A DNA stretch of 64,000 nt from NCBI RefSeq assembly GCF_020541305.1, contig NZ_CP047396.1:310001-374000 (forward strand), given 5' to 3'. The notes beneath the pieces were generated by a model. That model had not been told where the DNA came from, ran no database searches, and was given only the letters and a program-made list of their open reading frames with translations. Source of the DNA: Candidatus Vallotiella adelgis (GTDB lineage Bacteria > Pseudomonadota > Gammaproteobacteria > Burkholderiales > Burkholderiaceae). Positions 31,833 through 36,936 of this stretch are shown here, piece after piece (the first letter of the stretch is position 1; the number at the start of each line of letters is the position of its first letter). The translations under genes and the position numbers were made by a program.

Positions 31833-33344
31833 TTATTGCTTTTTCGTCAGAGCAGCTCGTGGTTTAACCAAGACAAACTGCGTATTGTCACCGCGGCGTA
31901 CTAGCAATGCTATATTTTTTTGTGGATCGAGGTGCTGGTGCTGTGTCAGCATCTCGAATTGTTTCGTATTCAGGACGTCAGTATTGCCGATTCGAAGAAT
32001 GATATCTCCCGGCTGTAAACCTGCACGGGCAGCTGGGCCGCCATGCACAACATTAATTTGTACGCCGCCCTTTACATGTATGGCTTTGAGTTGCTCTGGC
32101 GGCAAGTCACTAATGGTCAGTGAAAGCTCATTTAATACGAGCTTGCCCGGTTGCGCAGGGAAGCTAGTTTGGGTCTTCGCCGTCATATCAGGCTTTATCT
32201 CAAGTACGACGACTGCAAAATCTTTCGTTTTACCCTTGCGCCAGATTGTCAGGATTACTCGGGTACCGGGCCTGGTTTCGCCCACCATCCTCGGTAGATC
32301 TGTCGCTGTATCTACATTACACCCATTAAACTTTAAGATAATATCCCCTGGCTGCACACCGGCCTGGTCGGCCGGCCCGTTGACCTCAACGCTTGATACC
32401 AGGGCGCCTTGTGCTTTGGCCAGACCTAGTGAGTCAGACACGTCTTTGGTTACTTTGCTAATTGCCACTGCGATTCGACCTCGTACGACTCGTCCGTTAA
32501 TCTTAAGTTGGTCTGCTACGCGCATTGCCTCATCAATCGGAATAGCAAACGAAATTCCCATGAAACCGCCTGTACGACTATAGATTTGCGAGTTGATGCC
32601 AATTACTTGCCCCTGCATATTGATTAACGGGCCACCCGAATTTCCAGGATTAACTGCGACATCAGTTTGAATAAACGGCAAATAATCACCTGTATCACGA
32701 CCTTTTGCACTGACAATGCCGGCTGTGACGGTGTTGTCTAGCCCGAATGGAGAGCCTATGGCTACAACCCATTCTCCGACTCGGACTTTTTTTGAATTGC
32801 TAATTGTCACTACTGGTAAGCTTGCCGCATTAATCTTGACAAGCGCCACGTCGGTACGCTCATCTACACCGATTAACTTTGCCTTGAATTCGCGTTTATC
32901 AGTTAGCGTCACATAGATCGTGTCTGCATCATCAACTACATGCGCATTGGTCATTACATAGCCGTCAGCGGATAGAATAAAGCCAGAACCTACCCCACTA
33001 CTTTGCTCTGCGTCAGGCGGATCCGCATCTTTACTTTCACCCCCTCCTCCGTGCGGTAAATTCGGCTTACTCGGTTGCTGTGGTAGCGGAAGACCGAAAA
33101 AACGCCGGAAGAACTCGGACATATCATCCTCATCTAACCCTGGTGGGAGACCGATGGGGCTTTGTTGCTGCGCATGCGTCGCAGTGCGAATATTAACGAC
33201 TGCCGGGCCGACTTTATCGACCAGGTTCGTGAAATCCGGCAGGTTGGAGGCGGCTGGCGCCACTGTTTCGCAAGGAAACACCAACGGAATACAAACAGCC
33301 ATTACGGCTGCAATCAAGAATATGCGCACCGGATGAATACTCAT
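31833..33344 (-). CDS. mucD: Periplasmic serine protease, DegP/MucD family
   Basis: An HtrA-type protease that degrades misfolded periplasmic proteins, often in the RpoE stress regulon. The 503-aa product starts with a signal peptide (FLIAAVMAVCIPLVFP). The triad is His in MTNAHVVDDAD, Asp in DERTDVALVKI and Ser in NPGNSGGPL. Two C-terminal PDZ domains follow (ADQAGVQPGDIILKFNG and AARAGLQPGDIILRIG). In relatives rseB lies directly upstream; here it is a pseudogene, so mucD is separated from rpoE by decayed DNA. Confidence 0.95.
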   Translation of the reverse strand: MSIHPVRIFLIAAVMAVCIPLVFPCETVAPAASNLPDFTNLVDKVGPAVVNIRTATHAQQQSPIGLPPGLDEDDMSEFFRRFFGLPLPQQPSKPNLPHGGGGESKDADPPDAEQSSGVGSGFILSADGYVMTNAHVVDDADTIYVTLTDKREFKAKLIGVDERTDVALVKINAASLPVVTISNSKKVRVGEWVVAIGSPFGLDNTVTAGIVSAKGRDTGDYLPFIQTDVAVNPGNSGGPLINMQGQVIGINSQIYSRTGGFMGISFAIPIDEAMRVADQLKINGRVVRGRIAVAISKVTKDVSDSLGLAKAQGALVSSVEVNGPADQAGVQPGDIILKFNGCNVDTATDLPRMVGETRPGTRVILTIWRKGKTKDFAVVVLEIKPDMTAKTQTSFPAQPGKLVLNELSLTISDLPPEQLKAIHVKGGVQINVVHGGPAARAGLQPGDIILRIGNTDVLNTKQFEMLTQHQHLDPQKNIALLVRRGDNTQFVLVKPRAALTKKQ

Positions 33345-33399
33345 ATTATCAATAAAAAGAAAGAGATCGCTCGCACTGTTTAGAAGCTCTCTATTCTAT

Positions 33400-34170
33400 A
33401 GTAGAGTAGAAGTAAAGTGTTACAGAGCTCCCATGAGTACTTACTACCTAAGGTAGTAATGTAATAACTGTTATGATTCTTGACCACGATATACGTGGCT
33501 CTACGTCGGCATTCGAGTTCTCATTGTGCGAATTACGCAGATAGTCAGATCAAAATTAAGACTACACATATTCATTAGAAAATACCGCTCCATTCATAGA
33601 AACGAGCGATAATTTCCGATTATGCAACGGCTATTGGCTGACGTAGTCTTAGCACTTTAAAGAAGTGAGGAATCAATCTAGAAATTTCCAGCCTAACTAG
33701 GGAGGTGATGTAATTAGATATAATTGCACTTAGCTAGAGAAATTGTATTTTAGTACACGGTTATACCGTGCTAGATACATAAAAAGACAACCCACTTAAG
33801 CACTGGCCCGATGACCATAAGTCTCTTCTTATGCAACATTAGTTTGGCTATTCCAGCCAGCGCAGAGAGGGGTTCTTTAGACGCAATTTGAGTTGAGTCC
33901 AGTGGGTCGTTACCGAACGTCTGGTCCCTATAAGATAGCGGAGATAGTCGAAAAAACAGAGTTTTCGACAAGCACCATCTCGCGTAACCTCCCCTGCGTT
34001 GCGTCGATGATGTCTGACTACTGAAGCTACTTTAATTTCTTTGCCCTTGAAAACCGAGTAGGCATAAATGGAAGAGACTGGAAATTGGGGAATTGCATAC
34101 TATGCGAACTGCTGCGCACTGGCTAGATCGAATAGTTTCGAGTGCAGTTGATCAACGCGGCATCGAGGCA
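33400..34170 (-). pseudogene. rseB: Eroded rseB/mucB (regulator of sigma-E activity)
   Basis: RseB protects the anti-sigma factor RseA from cleavage and senses envelope stress. On the minus strand near 34060-33965, VFKGKEIKVASVVRHHRRN and then VTRDGACRKLC match the RseB N-terminal pattern FVYQRG.EVQASRI.HY.D..N ... LDG.PR.ML. Near 33885-33780 a shifted frame, IASKEPLSALAGIAKLML, fits the following SK.SFPALLG..... Stops and shifts interrupt it. It lies between rpoE and mucD, the family location. Confidence 0.65.
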
Positions 34171-34249
34171 GCATCAGTCGCGGCGGACACCCACATATGT
34201 ACGTCTGTAATATTCTAATATCGCTACATGTTAGTTAATAATCTAAGTA

Positions 34250-34565
34250 TCGACAACTAAAACACAGGTAACTCATTGATTAGTCATTCGAAAAACTAAA
34301 TAGCGAACACTGCGATTATGCGGTATTTGCCGAACATGCAGCAAAATGCTGACTTCTTAATATCCAGGCCTAGAAATATTGCTCATTGGCAATTAGAATC
34401 CACAGAGTGGACAGGAACTTAGTGGTCCCACATACCGAGCTTTTTAGGATTTATCGTCCGTAGCGGTAGAAATATTACTGAGTAACCAACATGCGCCTCA
34501 CTGACTAGTTTATTTAGAACGAAACGGGCTCTATACCCCCTTCCTGTCTGATCGGCGATCCGTCA
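34250..34565 (-). pseudogene. rseA: Probable remnant of rseA (anti-sigma-E factor)
   Basis: RseA is the inner-membrane anti-sigma factor that holds RpoE inactive. Directly downstream of rpoE a minus-strand ATG (34565) is followed after 11 codons by a stop. Near 34435, MWDHxVPVHSVDS with x a TAA fits the RseA pattern WD.Y.LIGD.LRS. No other part is recognisable. The call depends largely on location between rpoE and the rseB ghost. The key fact is that no intact anti-sigma gene is present. Confidence 0.45.
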
Positions 34566-34588
34566 TAGTGCTTATTCAACCTCTGCCG

Positions 34589-35188
34589 TCACCATCGTTT
34601 TCCTGCAGGAGTGTCTAGCAAGGGGCGCAACTTTGTGGCAATAACTTCTCTAGCGCGAAAAATTCTCGATCTAACTGTACCAATCGGGCAACTCATTGTA
34701 TCGGCGATTTCTTCGTAGCTTAGTCCTTCGATTTCGCGCAGCGTGATTGCTATGCGCAATTCATCCGGCAACAGTGCCATCGCAGTATTTACTGTGTGCG
34801 CAATTTGCTTGCTCATCAATACTAATTCGGGTGTGTTAACATCTTTTAAATGTTTAACATCAAGGCAAGTTTTAACTGTTTCTATATCTGCATGTCTAGA
34901 AGTTGATGTATGTCGCCCTTGTGTTGCAAGATAATTCTTTGCGGTGTTGATGGCAATCCGATACAACCATGTATAAAACGTCGACTCACTTCGGAATTGC
35001 CGCAGCGCGCGATATGCTTTGATAAAAGCATCTTGCGCGACGTCCTCAACTTCCGCAGAGTCGCGCACCAGGCGCGAAATCAACCTGATAATCTTGCGGT
35101 GGTATTTAGTAACTAAGAGTTCGAAGGCGGCTTTATCGCCTTTTTGCACGCGCTCGACCAATGCCTGGTCGATTTCTTTTTCGCTCAC
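34589..35188 (-). CDS. rpoE: RNA polymerase sigma factor RpoE (ECF, sigma-E)
   Basis: The extracytoplasmic stress sigma factor, 199 aa, starting at GTG 35188. Region 2 reads LISRLVRDSAEVEDVAQDAFIKAY and YTWLYRIAINTAKNYL (-10 recognition). Region 4 reads LPDELRIAITLREIEGLSYEE and CPIGTVRSRIFRARE (-35 recognition). It ends LLDTPAGKRW, as in Burkholderia. It is fully intact although its anti-sigma partners rseA and rseB are eroded immediately downstream, so it may act without its normal brake. The 509-base gap to fabF holds no recognisable gene. Confidence 0.95.
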   Translation of the reverse strand: MSEKEIDQALVERVQKGDKAAFELLVTKYHRKIIRLISRLVRDSAEVEDVAQDAFIKAYRALRQFRSESTFYTWLYRIAINTAKNYLATQGRHTSTSRHADIETVKTCLDVKHLKDVNTPELVLMSKQIAHTVNTAMALLPDELRIAITLREIEGLSYEEIADTMSCPIGTVRSRIFRAREVIATKLRPLLDTPAGKRW

Positions 35189-35697
35189 CTGAAAAATCCA
35201 TTTTTTATATAGATTGCAACCCGAAAGGATGCCGATTGTACTGCCCCTCTAGGAAGGATAAGTACTTCAACAGTATGAAAGGAGGATTCGAAATAGCTTA
35301 TCTAAAACCCTTAATTCTGACATGCCAACGCGCTTGCCAATCCTCCAAACATAGGTTGTCTTAGTTGTATGTGCAATGATTATCACCGAACCTAGTGTTA
35401 AATTATGGGATGCCGCATTGCTTATTTGTCGTTACATATACGAACAGTACAACAGACTTGGCAGTAAGGCGTGCATATCTAGGGGTGGTAGAATATTACC
35501 GCTAAAGATAATTTTTAGTTATACAGGCCTCATACGCTTTAGCGCTGTGAAACAATAGACTATACAAGCGAAACCGGCATTGCAAAGTAGAAACCCATAC
35601 TGAGCACCACAAAATTCTATCGACATCTACGCAACGCCAGCGGGCGGAAATTCGGAATGAAGTGGGGGAGAGAAAAACGACGGCTCGCGATTCGTGA
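35189..35697. other. Intergenic region between rpoE and fabF
   Basis: About 510 bases containing the rpoE leader on the minus strand and two short chance plus-strand frames. No motif or named remnant was found. Confidence 0.5.
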
Positions 35698-36936
35698 TCA
35701 GATACGCTGAAATATCAGCGTACCGTTTGTACCTCCGAAACCAAACGAATTCTTCAGTGCGACATCGATTTTCATTTCTCGTGCGGCATTCGCGCAGTAA
35801 TCCAAGTCGCACTCCGGATCCTGATTAAAAATGTTGATTGTGGGCGGCGATACTTGGTGATAGAGCGCCAACACAGTAAATATCGATTCCAGCCCGCCCG
35901 CACCGCCAAGTAAGTGGCCAGTCATAGACTTTGTCGAGTTCACGACCATATGCTTCACGTGATGGCCAAACACACGCTTAATACCTATAGTTTCTGCTAG
36001 GTCACCTAACGGAGTTGACGTGCCGTGTGCATTTAGATAATTGACTTTGTCCAAGTTCACGCGCGCGTTTTTCAACGCCGCCAGCATACAACGGCGCGCA
36101 CCATCGCCATCTGCAAGTGGTGCAGTGATGTGGTACGCGTCAGCACTCATGCCGTAGCCGGCAACTTCGGCATAGATCTTTGCGCAACGTGCTTTAGCAT
36201 GCTTGTACTCCTCGAGTACCATGACGCCCGCACCTTCACCGAGTGCAAAGCCATCACGATCCTTGTCCCATGGACGGCTAGCAGTTGCTGGATCGTCGTT
36301 ACGCTGCGACAAAGCGCGCGCGGCAGCAAATCCGCCCACGCCAAGCGGCGATACAGTCGCCTCTGCACCGCCAGCTAGCATTACGTCAGCATCTCCATAT
36401 TCAATTAACCGCGTTGCCTCGCCGATACAATGTAGACCAGTTGTGCATGCAGTTACAATAGCTAGGTTTGCCCCCTTGAGACCATAATGCATTGACAGAT
36501 GACCGGATATCATATTAATAATTGAGGCTGGGACAAAAAAAGGAGAAATCCGCCGTGGTCCGCGCTGGAGCATCTCGGTTTGTGTTGCCTCAATCATCGG
36601 TAAGCCGCCAATACCCGAGCCGACTACTACACCGATACGCTCGAGATCCTCGCTCTCTGTATCGATACCTGAGTCTGTCATCGCCTGTACACCGGCTGCA
36701 AAACCGTAGTGGATAAACGTATCTATATGGCGGGCTTCTTTGGCTCCCATATAATCTTCAACATTAAAACCCTTAACTTCACCAGCAAAACGCGTCGATA
36801 AATTCGACGCATTAAACTTTGTGATATTCGCAATCCCCGATTTACCAGCGACTAGGTTCGACCAACCGTCGGCAACGTTATTACCAACAGGCGAAATCAG
36901 CCCAAGTCCGGTAACCACTACACGACGACGGCTCAC
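35698..36936 (-). CDS. fabF: 3-oxoacyl-ACP synthase II (KAS II)
   Basis: FabF condenses malonyl-ACP with long acyl-ACP chains. The 412-aa product starts at GTG 36936 behind AAGGAA. Active-site Cys is in VTACTTGLHCIG and the two His are in NAHGTSTPLGD and NSTKSMTGHLLGGAGG. The C-terminal glycine loop NSFGFGGTNGTLIF is intact. It is the last gene of the plsX-fabH-fabD-fabG-acpP-fabF cluster, downstream of acpP with a probable terminator hairpin between them. Confidence 0.97.
   Translation of the reverse strand: MSRRRVVVTGLGLISPVGNNVADGWSNLVAGKSGIANITKFNASNLSTRFAGEVKGFNVEDYMGAKEARHIDTFIHYGFAAGVQAMTDSGIDTESEDLERIGVVVGSGIGGLPMIEATQTEMLQRGPRRISPFFVPASIINMISGHLSMHYGLKGANLAIVTACTTGLHCIGEATRLIEYGDADVMLAGGAEATVSPLGVGGFAAARALSQRNDDPATASRPWDKDRDGFALGEGAGVMVLEEYKHAKARCAKIYAEVAGYGMSADAYHITAPLADGDGARRCMLAALKNARVNLDKVNYLNAHGTSTPLGDLAETIGIKRVFGHHVKHMVVNSTKSMTGHLLGGAGGLESIFTVLALYHQVSPPTINIFNQDPECDLDYCANAAREMKIDVALKNSFGFGGTNGTLIFQRI

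Follow-up and report, generated by a model that had tools for sequence, protein, structure and literature searches.

Sigma-E retained without RseA, RseB and RseP in Candidatus Vallotiella adelgis and other Burkholderiaceae endosymbionts

The window analyzed here is a 64,000-nucleotide stretch (positions 310,001 to 374,000 of contig NZ_CP047396.1, GCF_020541305.1) of the genome of Candidatus Vallotiella adelgis (G000), which comprises two contigs and 1,240,189 bp in total. It contains the neighborhood fabF-rpoE-(rseA-rseB)-mucD-lepA. RseA binds and silences the sigma factor RpoE, RseB guards RseA, and the protease RseP cuts RseA. A first-pass annotation of this DNA described rpoE and mucD as undamaged, and both genes indeed proved to have complete reading frames (Table 1). 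RpoE scored 291.5 bits with the RpoE equivalog model (cut-off, 236.15) and carries sigma70 regions 2 and 4 (PF04542 and PF08281). It is one of three PF04542 sigma factors in the genome, which we took to be RpoD, RpoH, and RpoE (RpoN lies outside this search). MucD scored 488.9 bits with the Do family model (cut-off, 416.2). As the one protein scored as a site-1 protease candidate, MucD reached 278.5 against a cut-off of 422.95 for the DegS equivalog. YN00 dN/dS for mucD was 0.072 to 0.100 in three comparisons that included the window genome.

Table 1. Features of the rpoE-mucD region, in window coordinates
Feature	Coordinates	Strand	Evidence
mucD, DegP/HtrA-type periplasmic protease, Do family, 503 codons, intact	31833..33344	-	Open frame; TIGR02037
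rseB remnant (RseB residues 257-359; 4 stops, 7 frameshifts)	33379..33693	-	Frameshift-tolerant profile alignment
Remainder of the rseA-rseB locus, eroded	33694..34588	-	Synteny with Mycetohabitans rpoE-rseA-rseB-mucD
rpoE, sigma-E (ECF sigma factor), 199 aa, start codon GTG, intact	34589..35188	-	Full 199-codon frame; TIGR02939; Pfam
Conserved rpoE leader, possible promoter, with -10-like TACAAT at 35235-35240	35189..35266	-	Block common to Mycetohabitans and rpoE-positive relatives

In Mycetohabitans, rpoE is followed by rseA (225 aa), rseB (359 aa), and mucD, and the rpoE-mucD interval measures 1,802 bp, compared with 1,244 bp in the window. The interval had been described as devoid of open frames; in agreement with this, the single frame of at least 60 aa lying wholly within it encodes 66 aa (33771-33971, minus strand), and its longest stop-to-stop run is 86 codons. 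We searched the interval by frameshift-tolerant comparison with profiles built from 102 loci (97 for RseB and 93 for RseA) and set the scores against those of dinucleotide shuffles. A broken RseB C terminus was found. Its score of 75.9 was reached by none of 300 shuffles and exceeded the maximum of 65.9 over 100 window tiles (2 of 50 tile positions overlap the interval); 42 of 99 aligned residues are identical, and the remnant lies 34 bp ahead of mucD, which is the expected spacing. The same remnant was in place in all four genomes of the Vallotia clade (0 of 300 shuffles in each case). The RseB N terminus was undetected on the coding strand of the remainder of the locus (775 of 1,000 shuffles reached the score), and RseA in the interval was at chance level (67 of 300 shuffles); a candidate match to the C terminus of RseA (34126-34041; score, 37.4) was likewise at chance level. 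RseA was clear in the corresponding interval of one clade member, G002 (0 of 300), weak in that of G003 (9 of 300), and absent from that of G005 (256 of 300).

On the plus strand, an RseB-like stretch at about 34100-34190 scored 64.5, which none of 2,000 shuffles reached. This stretch is either a small inversion or a chance match; the 100 window tiles, its own tile included, reach 65.9, 60.8, and 58.3. Two short peptides, VFKGKEIKVASVVRHH and IASKEPLSALAG (at 34054 and 33887), had been put forward as RseB-like fragments, but the stretches around them scored at or below the RseB shuffle mean (reached by 422 and 180 of 500 shuffles, respectively); their raw RseA scores, without shuffle comparison, were 35.3 and 27.7. 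A WDxY trace of RseA had also been claimed; six-frame translation of the interval shows no WDxY. Of the proposed erosion of both genes, the RseB part stands, with significant RseB similarity in the interval, while RseA is undetectable there. Judged from the sequence, the initial view of both genes as lost is correct, though partly on grounds other than those first given.

We next asked what else the genome holds. No intact rseA turned up outside the window: there was no match to RseA_N or zf-HC2 anywhere in the G000 genome, these being the two anti-sigma families searched genome-wide. MucB_RseB (PF03888) also had no match in G000, and neither RseA_N nor PF03888 matched in the other three Vallotia-clade genomes. 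Among more distant genomes, an RseA_N match in G024 (E value of 0.0124, under the cut-off) falls in a 303-aa frame beside a lipase-like gene and was judged by eye to be a lipase chaperone, and a match in G008 (E value of 0.188) contains stops. The initial view of an intact sigma-E with RseA and RseB gone is supported in this genome.

RseP (TIGR00054) gave just partial matches, to the PDZ part, in G000, G002, G003, G005, G024, G060, and G008. In Mycetohabitans G007, RseP is intact, and the Mycetohabitans position is between dxr and bamA. The dxr-bamA interval of G000 retains the RseP C terminus in two frames (residues 375-411, 57% identity, and 416-462, 62% identity; C1 ~125090-125360, L190 5091-5361), with dxr and bamA intact on either side. 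G003 has a weaker RseP scrap with stops in this interval, and no RseP was recognizable in those of G002 and G005. In G024 and G060, bamA follows dxr directly, about 100 bp away as estimated from match ends. G000 thus lacks RseA, RseB, and RseP of the canonical RpoE-RseA-RseB response. In E. coli, deletion of rseA abolishes the need for DegS and RseP. According to passages in PMC12421810 and PMC11481867, both proteases are required in E. coli for freeing sigma-E from RseA; loss of RseA should therefore end the need for them, and the loss of RseP fits the loss of RseA. RseP was present in 16 of 25 chosen genomes, and nine of these had no RpoE or RseB match, so RseP loss is not tied to RseA loss alone.

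To place these losses, we compared related genomes. Of seven other genomes of the same genus, four are 3.3 to 3.8 Mb and three are 1.1 to 1.2 Mb. The larger ones are taken to be Mycetohabitans, fungal endosymbionts (G006 and G007 among our labels). G000, G002, G003, and G005 make up the Vallotia clade, in which G003 was taken as Candidatus Vallotia tarda, an adelgid symbiont with a chromosome of 1,123,864 bp according to Table 1 of PMC8692619. The window genome is most likely a shrunken genome from a Vallotia-type insect symbiont. G024, G060, and G074 belong to one genus, taken as Mycoavidus, with G060 taken as Mycoavidus cysteinexigens B1-EB, for which a passage in PMC5877345 gives 2,795,004 bp. 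In a nine-gene tree, the sister group of G000 comprises G002, G003, and G005 (ultrafast bootstrap, 100), with Mycetohabitans as the adjacent group. Mycoavidus branches outside the Mycetohabitans-Vallotia group, with a bootstrap value of 100. G008, an assembly in 200 contigs, sits on a long branch, and its placement is unsure.

Across 398 genomes of the family, RpoE was found in 317 (at 1e-55 or better) and RseB in 313 (at 1e-10 or better). Comparison of the two lists by eye gave six genomes with RpoE and without RseB, namely G000, G003, G005, G008, G024, and G060, all of 1.1 to 2.8 Mb; at these cut-offs, two genomes (G041 and G281) had RseB without RpoE. RseP was absent from all six RpoE-only genomes and present in all six genomes checked that have both RpoE and RseB. 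Small genome size is not decisive, since G045 (2.6 Mb) and G188 (2.8 Mb) retain RpoE and RseB. G003 and G005 share the state of the window, and G002 has lost rpoE too, as a pseudogene with five in-frame stops, and has an intact mucD. Mycoavidus G024 and G060 show a clean loss of rseA, rseB, and rseP, and mucD directly follows rpoE at a spacing of roughly 60 bp, as judged from the annotated start codons. In G008, the neighbors of rpoE are fabF and a gene judged by eye to be AlkA-like, and mucD is not adjacent. The third Mycoavidus genome, G074, had no RpoE match at 1e-55 and no RseP match at 1e-15; with neither match, G074 may have lost sigma-E in the same way as G002. Because Mycoavidus branches outside and Mycetohabitans retains all parts, at least two separate losses are the simplest account. 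Retention of sigma-E with loss of its brake, guard, and release protease is, in terms of predicted gene content, a broader pattern in Vallotia-type and Mycoavidus symbionts, with fungal symbionts among the reduced genomes that show it. The additional loss of RseP and the recurrence in Mycoavidus make the case for a sigma-E without a brake stronger than the window by itself could reveal.

The DNA upstream of rpoE is unevenly preserved. In the fabF-rpoE interval of the window, the stretch adjoining rpoE is kept and the remainder is eroded. The kept stretch is a putative promoter region: its TACAAT element precedes rpoE in all 60 named relatives as well as in G000 and G003, and is missing from G005 and Mycoavidus. 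A simple sigma-70 promoter scan did not report this site. Further upstream, a TGTAAC direct repeat is present in 33 of the 60 named relatives, in all three Mycetohabitans loci, and in the two Mycoavidus genomes examined; G000, G003, and G005 all lack it. The repeat may be an activator site for rpoE, and its loss could have left basal rpoE expression in these three genomes, a weak reading given that nearly half of the relatives have no such repeat. Separately, the fabF-rpoE interval of Mycoavidus G024 (L123 4997-5440) encodes a CptA-toxin-like membrane protein (PF07254); the window interval (35189-35697), eroded except beside rpoE, has no CptA-like frame.

We favor the interpretation, at a probability of about 0.6, that the sigma-E pathway of this symbiont has been cut down to the sigma factor alone, with RpoE activity set by its own synthesis, as a step towards loss of the pathway. 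RseA as the brake, RseB as the guard, and RseP as the protease that removes the brake are lost, while RpoE and MucD remain. Since all three are lost, the signal path from the envelope to the sigma factor is missing, and RpoE activity would follow synthesis from the retained leader and its -10-like element rather than envelope signals. The same end state was reached separately in Mycoavidus. The control parts would go first, and the sigma factor would persist under weakened purifying selection, with later loss possible, as in G002. The sequences show the gene losses, an intact and constrained RpoE frame, and the recurrence of the pattern; from these, we infer that RpoE is expressed, unsequestered, and constitutively active, and likewise the order of the losses. 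The window RpoE is most likely a transitional, signal-blind sigma factor, if gene content is a guide.

The most serious alternative, which we consider unlikely on the evidence that follows, is that RpoE is a decaying relic, open by lag, with little or no expression and no function left. The G002 pseudogene and the lack of an RpoE match in G074 would be expected of a gene on its way out, but the rpoE frame is intact in three Vallotia-clade and two Mycoavidus genomes, and lag alone would seldom keep it so. In neutral simulations (1,000 runs per distance, without indels), a stop-free frame survived in 16.6%, 3.9%, and 0.7% of runs at 0.1, 0.2, and 0.3 substitutions per site, and in 0, 0.1, and 0% at 0.5, 0.7, and 1.0. 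Pairwise YN00 dS among the three rpoE-bearing Vallotia-clade genomes was 0.5 to 1.4, each value spread over two branches. In six comparisons, dN/dS for rpoE was well below 1 (0.12 to 0.29 by YN00; 0.07 to 0.19 by NG86); a seventh, between two Mycetohabitans genomes, showed no amino acid change. We also took as a reference 93 RpoE positions, 37 of them in domain 4, that are invariant in 98 relatives. The window RpoE has changed 4 of the 93 and none of the 37 in domain 4. G003, with 13 of the 93 changed, and G005, which lacks TACAAT and has 7 changed, lean more towards decay; the counts for G024 and G008 were 5 and 10.

RpoE has nonetheless evolved quickly in the lineages without the brake, as decay would predict. 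In G000, G003, and G005, its change amounts to 4.4 to 5.8 times the Mycetohabitans-Paraburkholderia distance. On this scale, which gave no ratio for PlsX, LepB, and Rnc, the values for MucD, LepA, FabF, FabG, and FabH are 0.7 to 1.4; the small and slow AcpP reaches 6 to 14, and the effect may therefore extend to slowly evolving genes at large. On a Cupriavidus scale, RpoE of Mycoavidus is at 1.7 to 1.8, compared with 0.9 to 1.2 for other genes and 1.9 for AcpP, and RpoE of G008 is at 3.3, compared with 1.5 for other genes and 4.2 for AcpP. The preservation of the stretch beside rpoE while other intergenic DNA decayed is a further argument against a relic. The window RpoE looks functional by these measures, and a fair reading of rpoE would be that of a constrained gene under relaxed selection.

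The conserved leader beside the rpoE start codon would also suit a second alternative, that RpoE is still restrained by an unrecognized inhibitor, by regulated proteolysis, or at the level of translation. Anti-sigma factors are diverse and short, and profile searches can overlook them. We nevertheless regard such restraint as improbable: the two anti-sigma families searched had no match in G000, no Rfam element was found at 33300-35750 up to an E value of 0.5, and the window RpoE has the same length as Mycetohabitans RpoE, so that it has no added regulatory domain. A sigma factor governed by its own synthesis remains the reading that we prefer.

We then searched for the genes that a free RpoE might serve. 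The first-pass annotation had proposed that it drives mucD and other envelope genes. Within 300 nt upstream of rpoE, mucD, lepA, lepB, fabF, acpP, fabG, fabH, or plsX, no sigma-E promoter scored above shuffles, and the same was true of the region preceding bamA and of rpoE and mucD in G003, G005, G006, and G024; in every case, at least 102 of 200 shuffles reached the score. Over eight genomes, the E. coli-type motif had 6 matches, compared with 12 in a reversed control, with a single occurrence in G000 and none in Mycetohabitans G007. These searches brought out no sigma-E promoter and hence no regulon, which amounts to absence of evidence, since the motif was of the E. coli type and that of the family may differ. 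Candidates with 10 to 11 of 13 letters upstream of rpoE in G003, G005, G024, the rpoE-less G002, and three Mycetohabitans loci were discarded, as none is common across relatives. Upstream of rpoH, six of eight genomes had no sigma-E candidate, and the weak ones in the other two, without shuffle comparison, matched 11 of 12 letters in G007 and 10 of 12 in G060. What we take to be a CIRCE-like inverted repeat, TTAGCACTC...GAGTGCTAA, precedes rpoH (L174-L181); it is clear in G007, G024, G060, and G008 and partial in G000, which suggests HrcA control of rpoH.

The least probable account, and one we give very little weight, has selection favoring loss of the brake, so as to let free RpoE drive mucD and envelope genes permanently in the host. 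In its favor, MucD and BamA are retained, rpoE and mucD are directly adjacent in Mycoavidus, and a passage in PMC7482071 reports upregulation of Mycetohabitans rpoE and rseA on contact with fungi. Against it, no sigma-E-like promoter rose above shuffles at the nine window genes or upstream of bamA, G002 keeps an intact mucD despite having lost rpoE, and fast evolution of RpoE would not be expected of a newly essential regulator. The idea that sigma-E has turned into a housekeeping program is doubtful for two of these reasons, the G002 pseudogene and the fast evolution of RpoE in these symbionts.

An anti-sigma factor normally restrains an ECF sigma factor of the RpoE kind; in at least two lineages, brake, guard, and release protease are gone and the sigma factor has stayed. 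These symbionts form a natural experiment on whether a stress regulator may turn constitutive and on the order in which a regulatory circuit collapses during genome reduction. If reduction of the pathway to the sigma factor is the right reading, the dismantling might even be repeatable in Burkholderiaceae endosymbionts: RseA, RseB, and RseP would go first, by decay in Vallotia and by clean deletion in Mycoavidus, followed by a long-lived stage with a signal-blind, unsequestered third sigma factor and then possible loss. We offer this general order tentatively, at rather less than even odds. Were it true, regulated stress responses would pass through an "always on" stage before extinction. Among titles and abstract openings, mostly outside the subscription literature, there was no report of anti-sigma loss with sigma-E retention in symbionts, and text queries of PMC8692619, PMC8857208, PMC12696581, and PMC5877345 returned neither of the words rpoE and sigma.

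Compared with the RpoE-RseA-RseB-RseP pathway (sigma-E, ECF02) of E. coli and Burkholderia, the window RpoE is orthologous and shares the gene neighborhood; unlike that pathway, the one in G000 has lost RseA, RseB, and RseP. In chronic lung infection by Pseudomonas aeruginosa, inactivation of mucA, the rseA homolog, frees a sigma-E-type factor, and the output is alginate. The two cases are alike in that anti-sigma loss in a host-bound population leaves a sigma-E-type factor free. However, the mucA case is recent, affects a single gene, and has a known, selected output, whereas the loss in the symbionts is old and extends to RseB and RseP. That E. coli needs degS and rseP conditionally, as described in passages of PMC12421810 and PMC11481867, is a laboratory or strain-level effect, and the pathway is kept in those genomes. 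Among insect symbionts, the weevil symbiont SOPE has lost rpoE as a pseudogene and Sodalis glossinidius retains it, according to a passage in PMC3914690. As in that pair, which we compared on rpoE only, the sigma-E pathway varies during genome reduction; in the window, the sigma factor outlives its control proteins.
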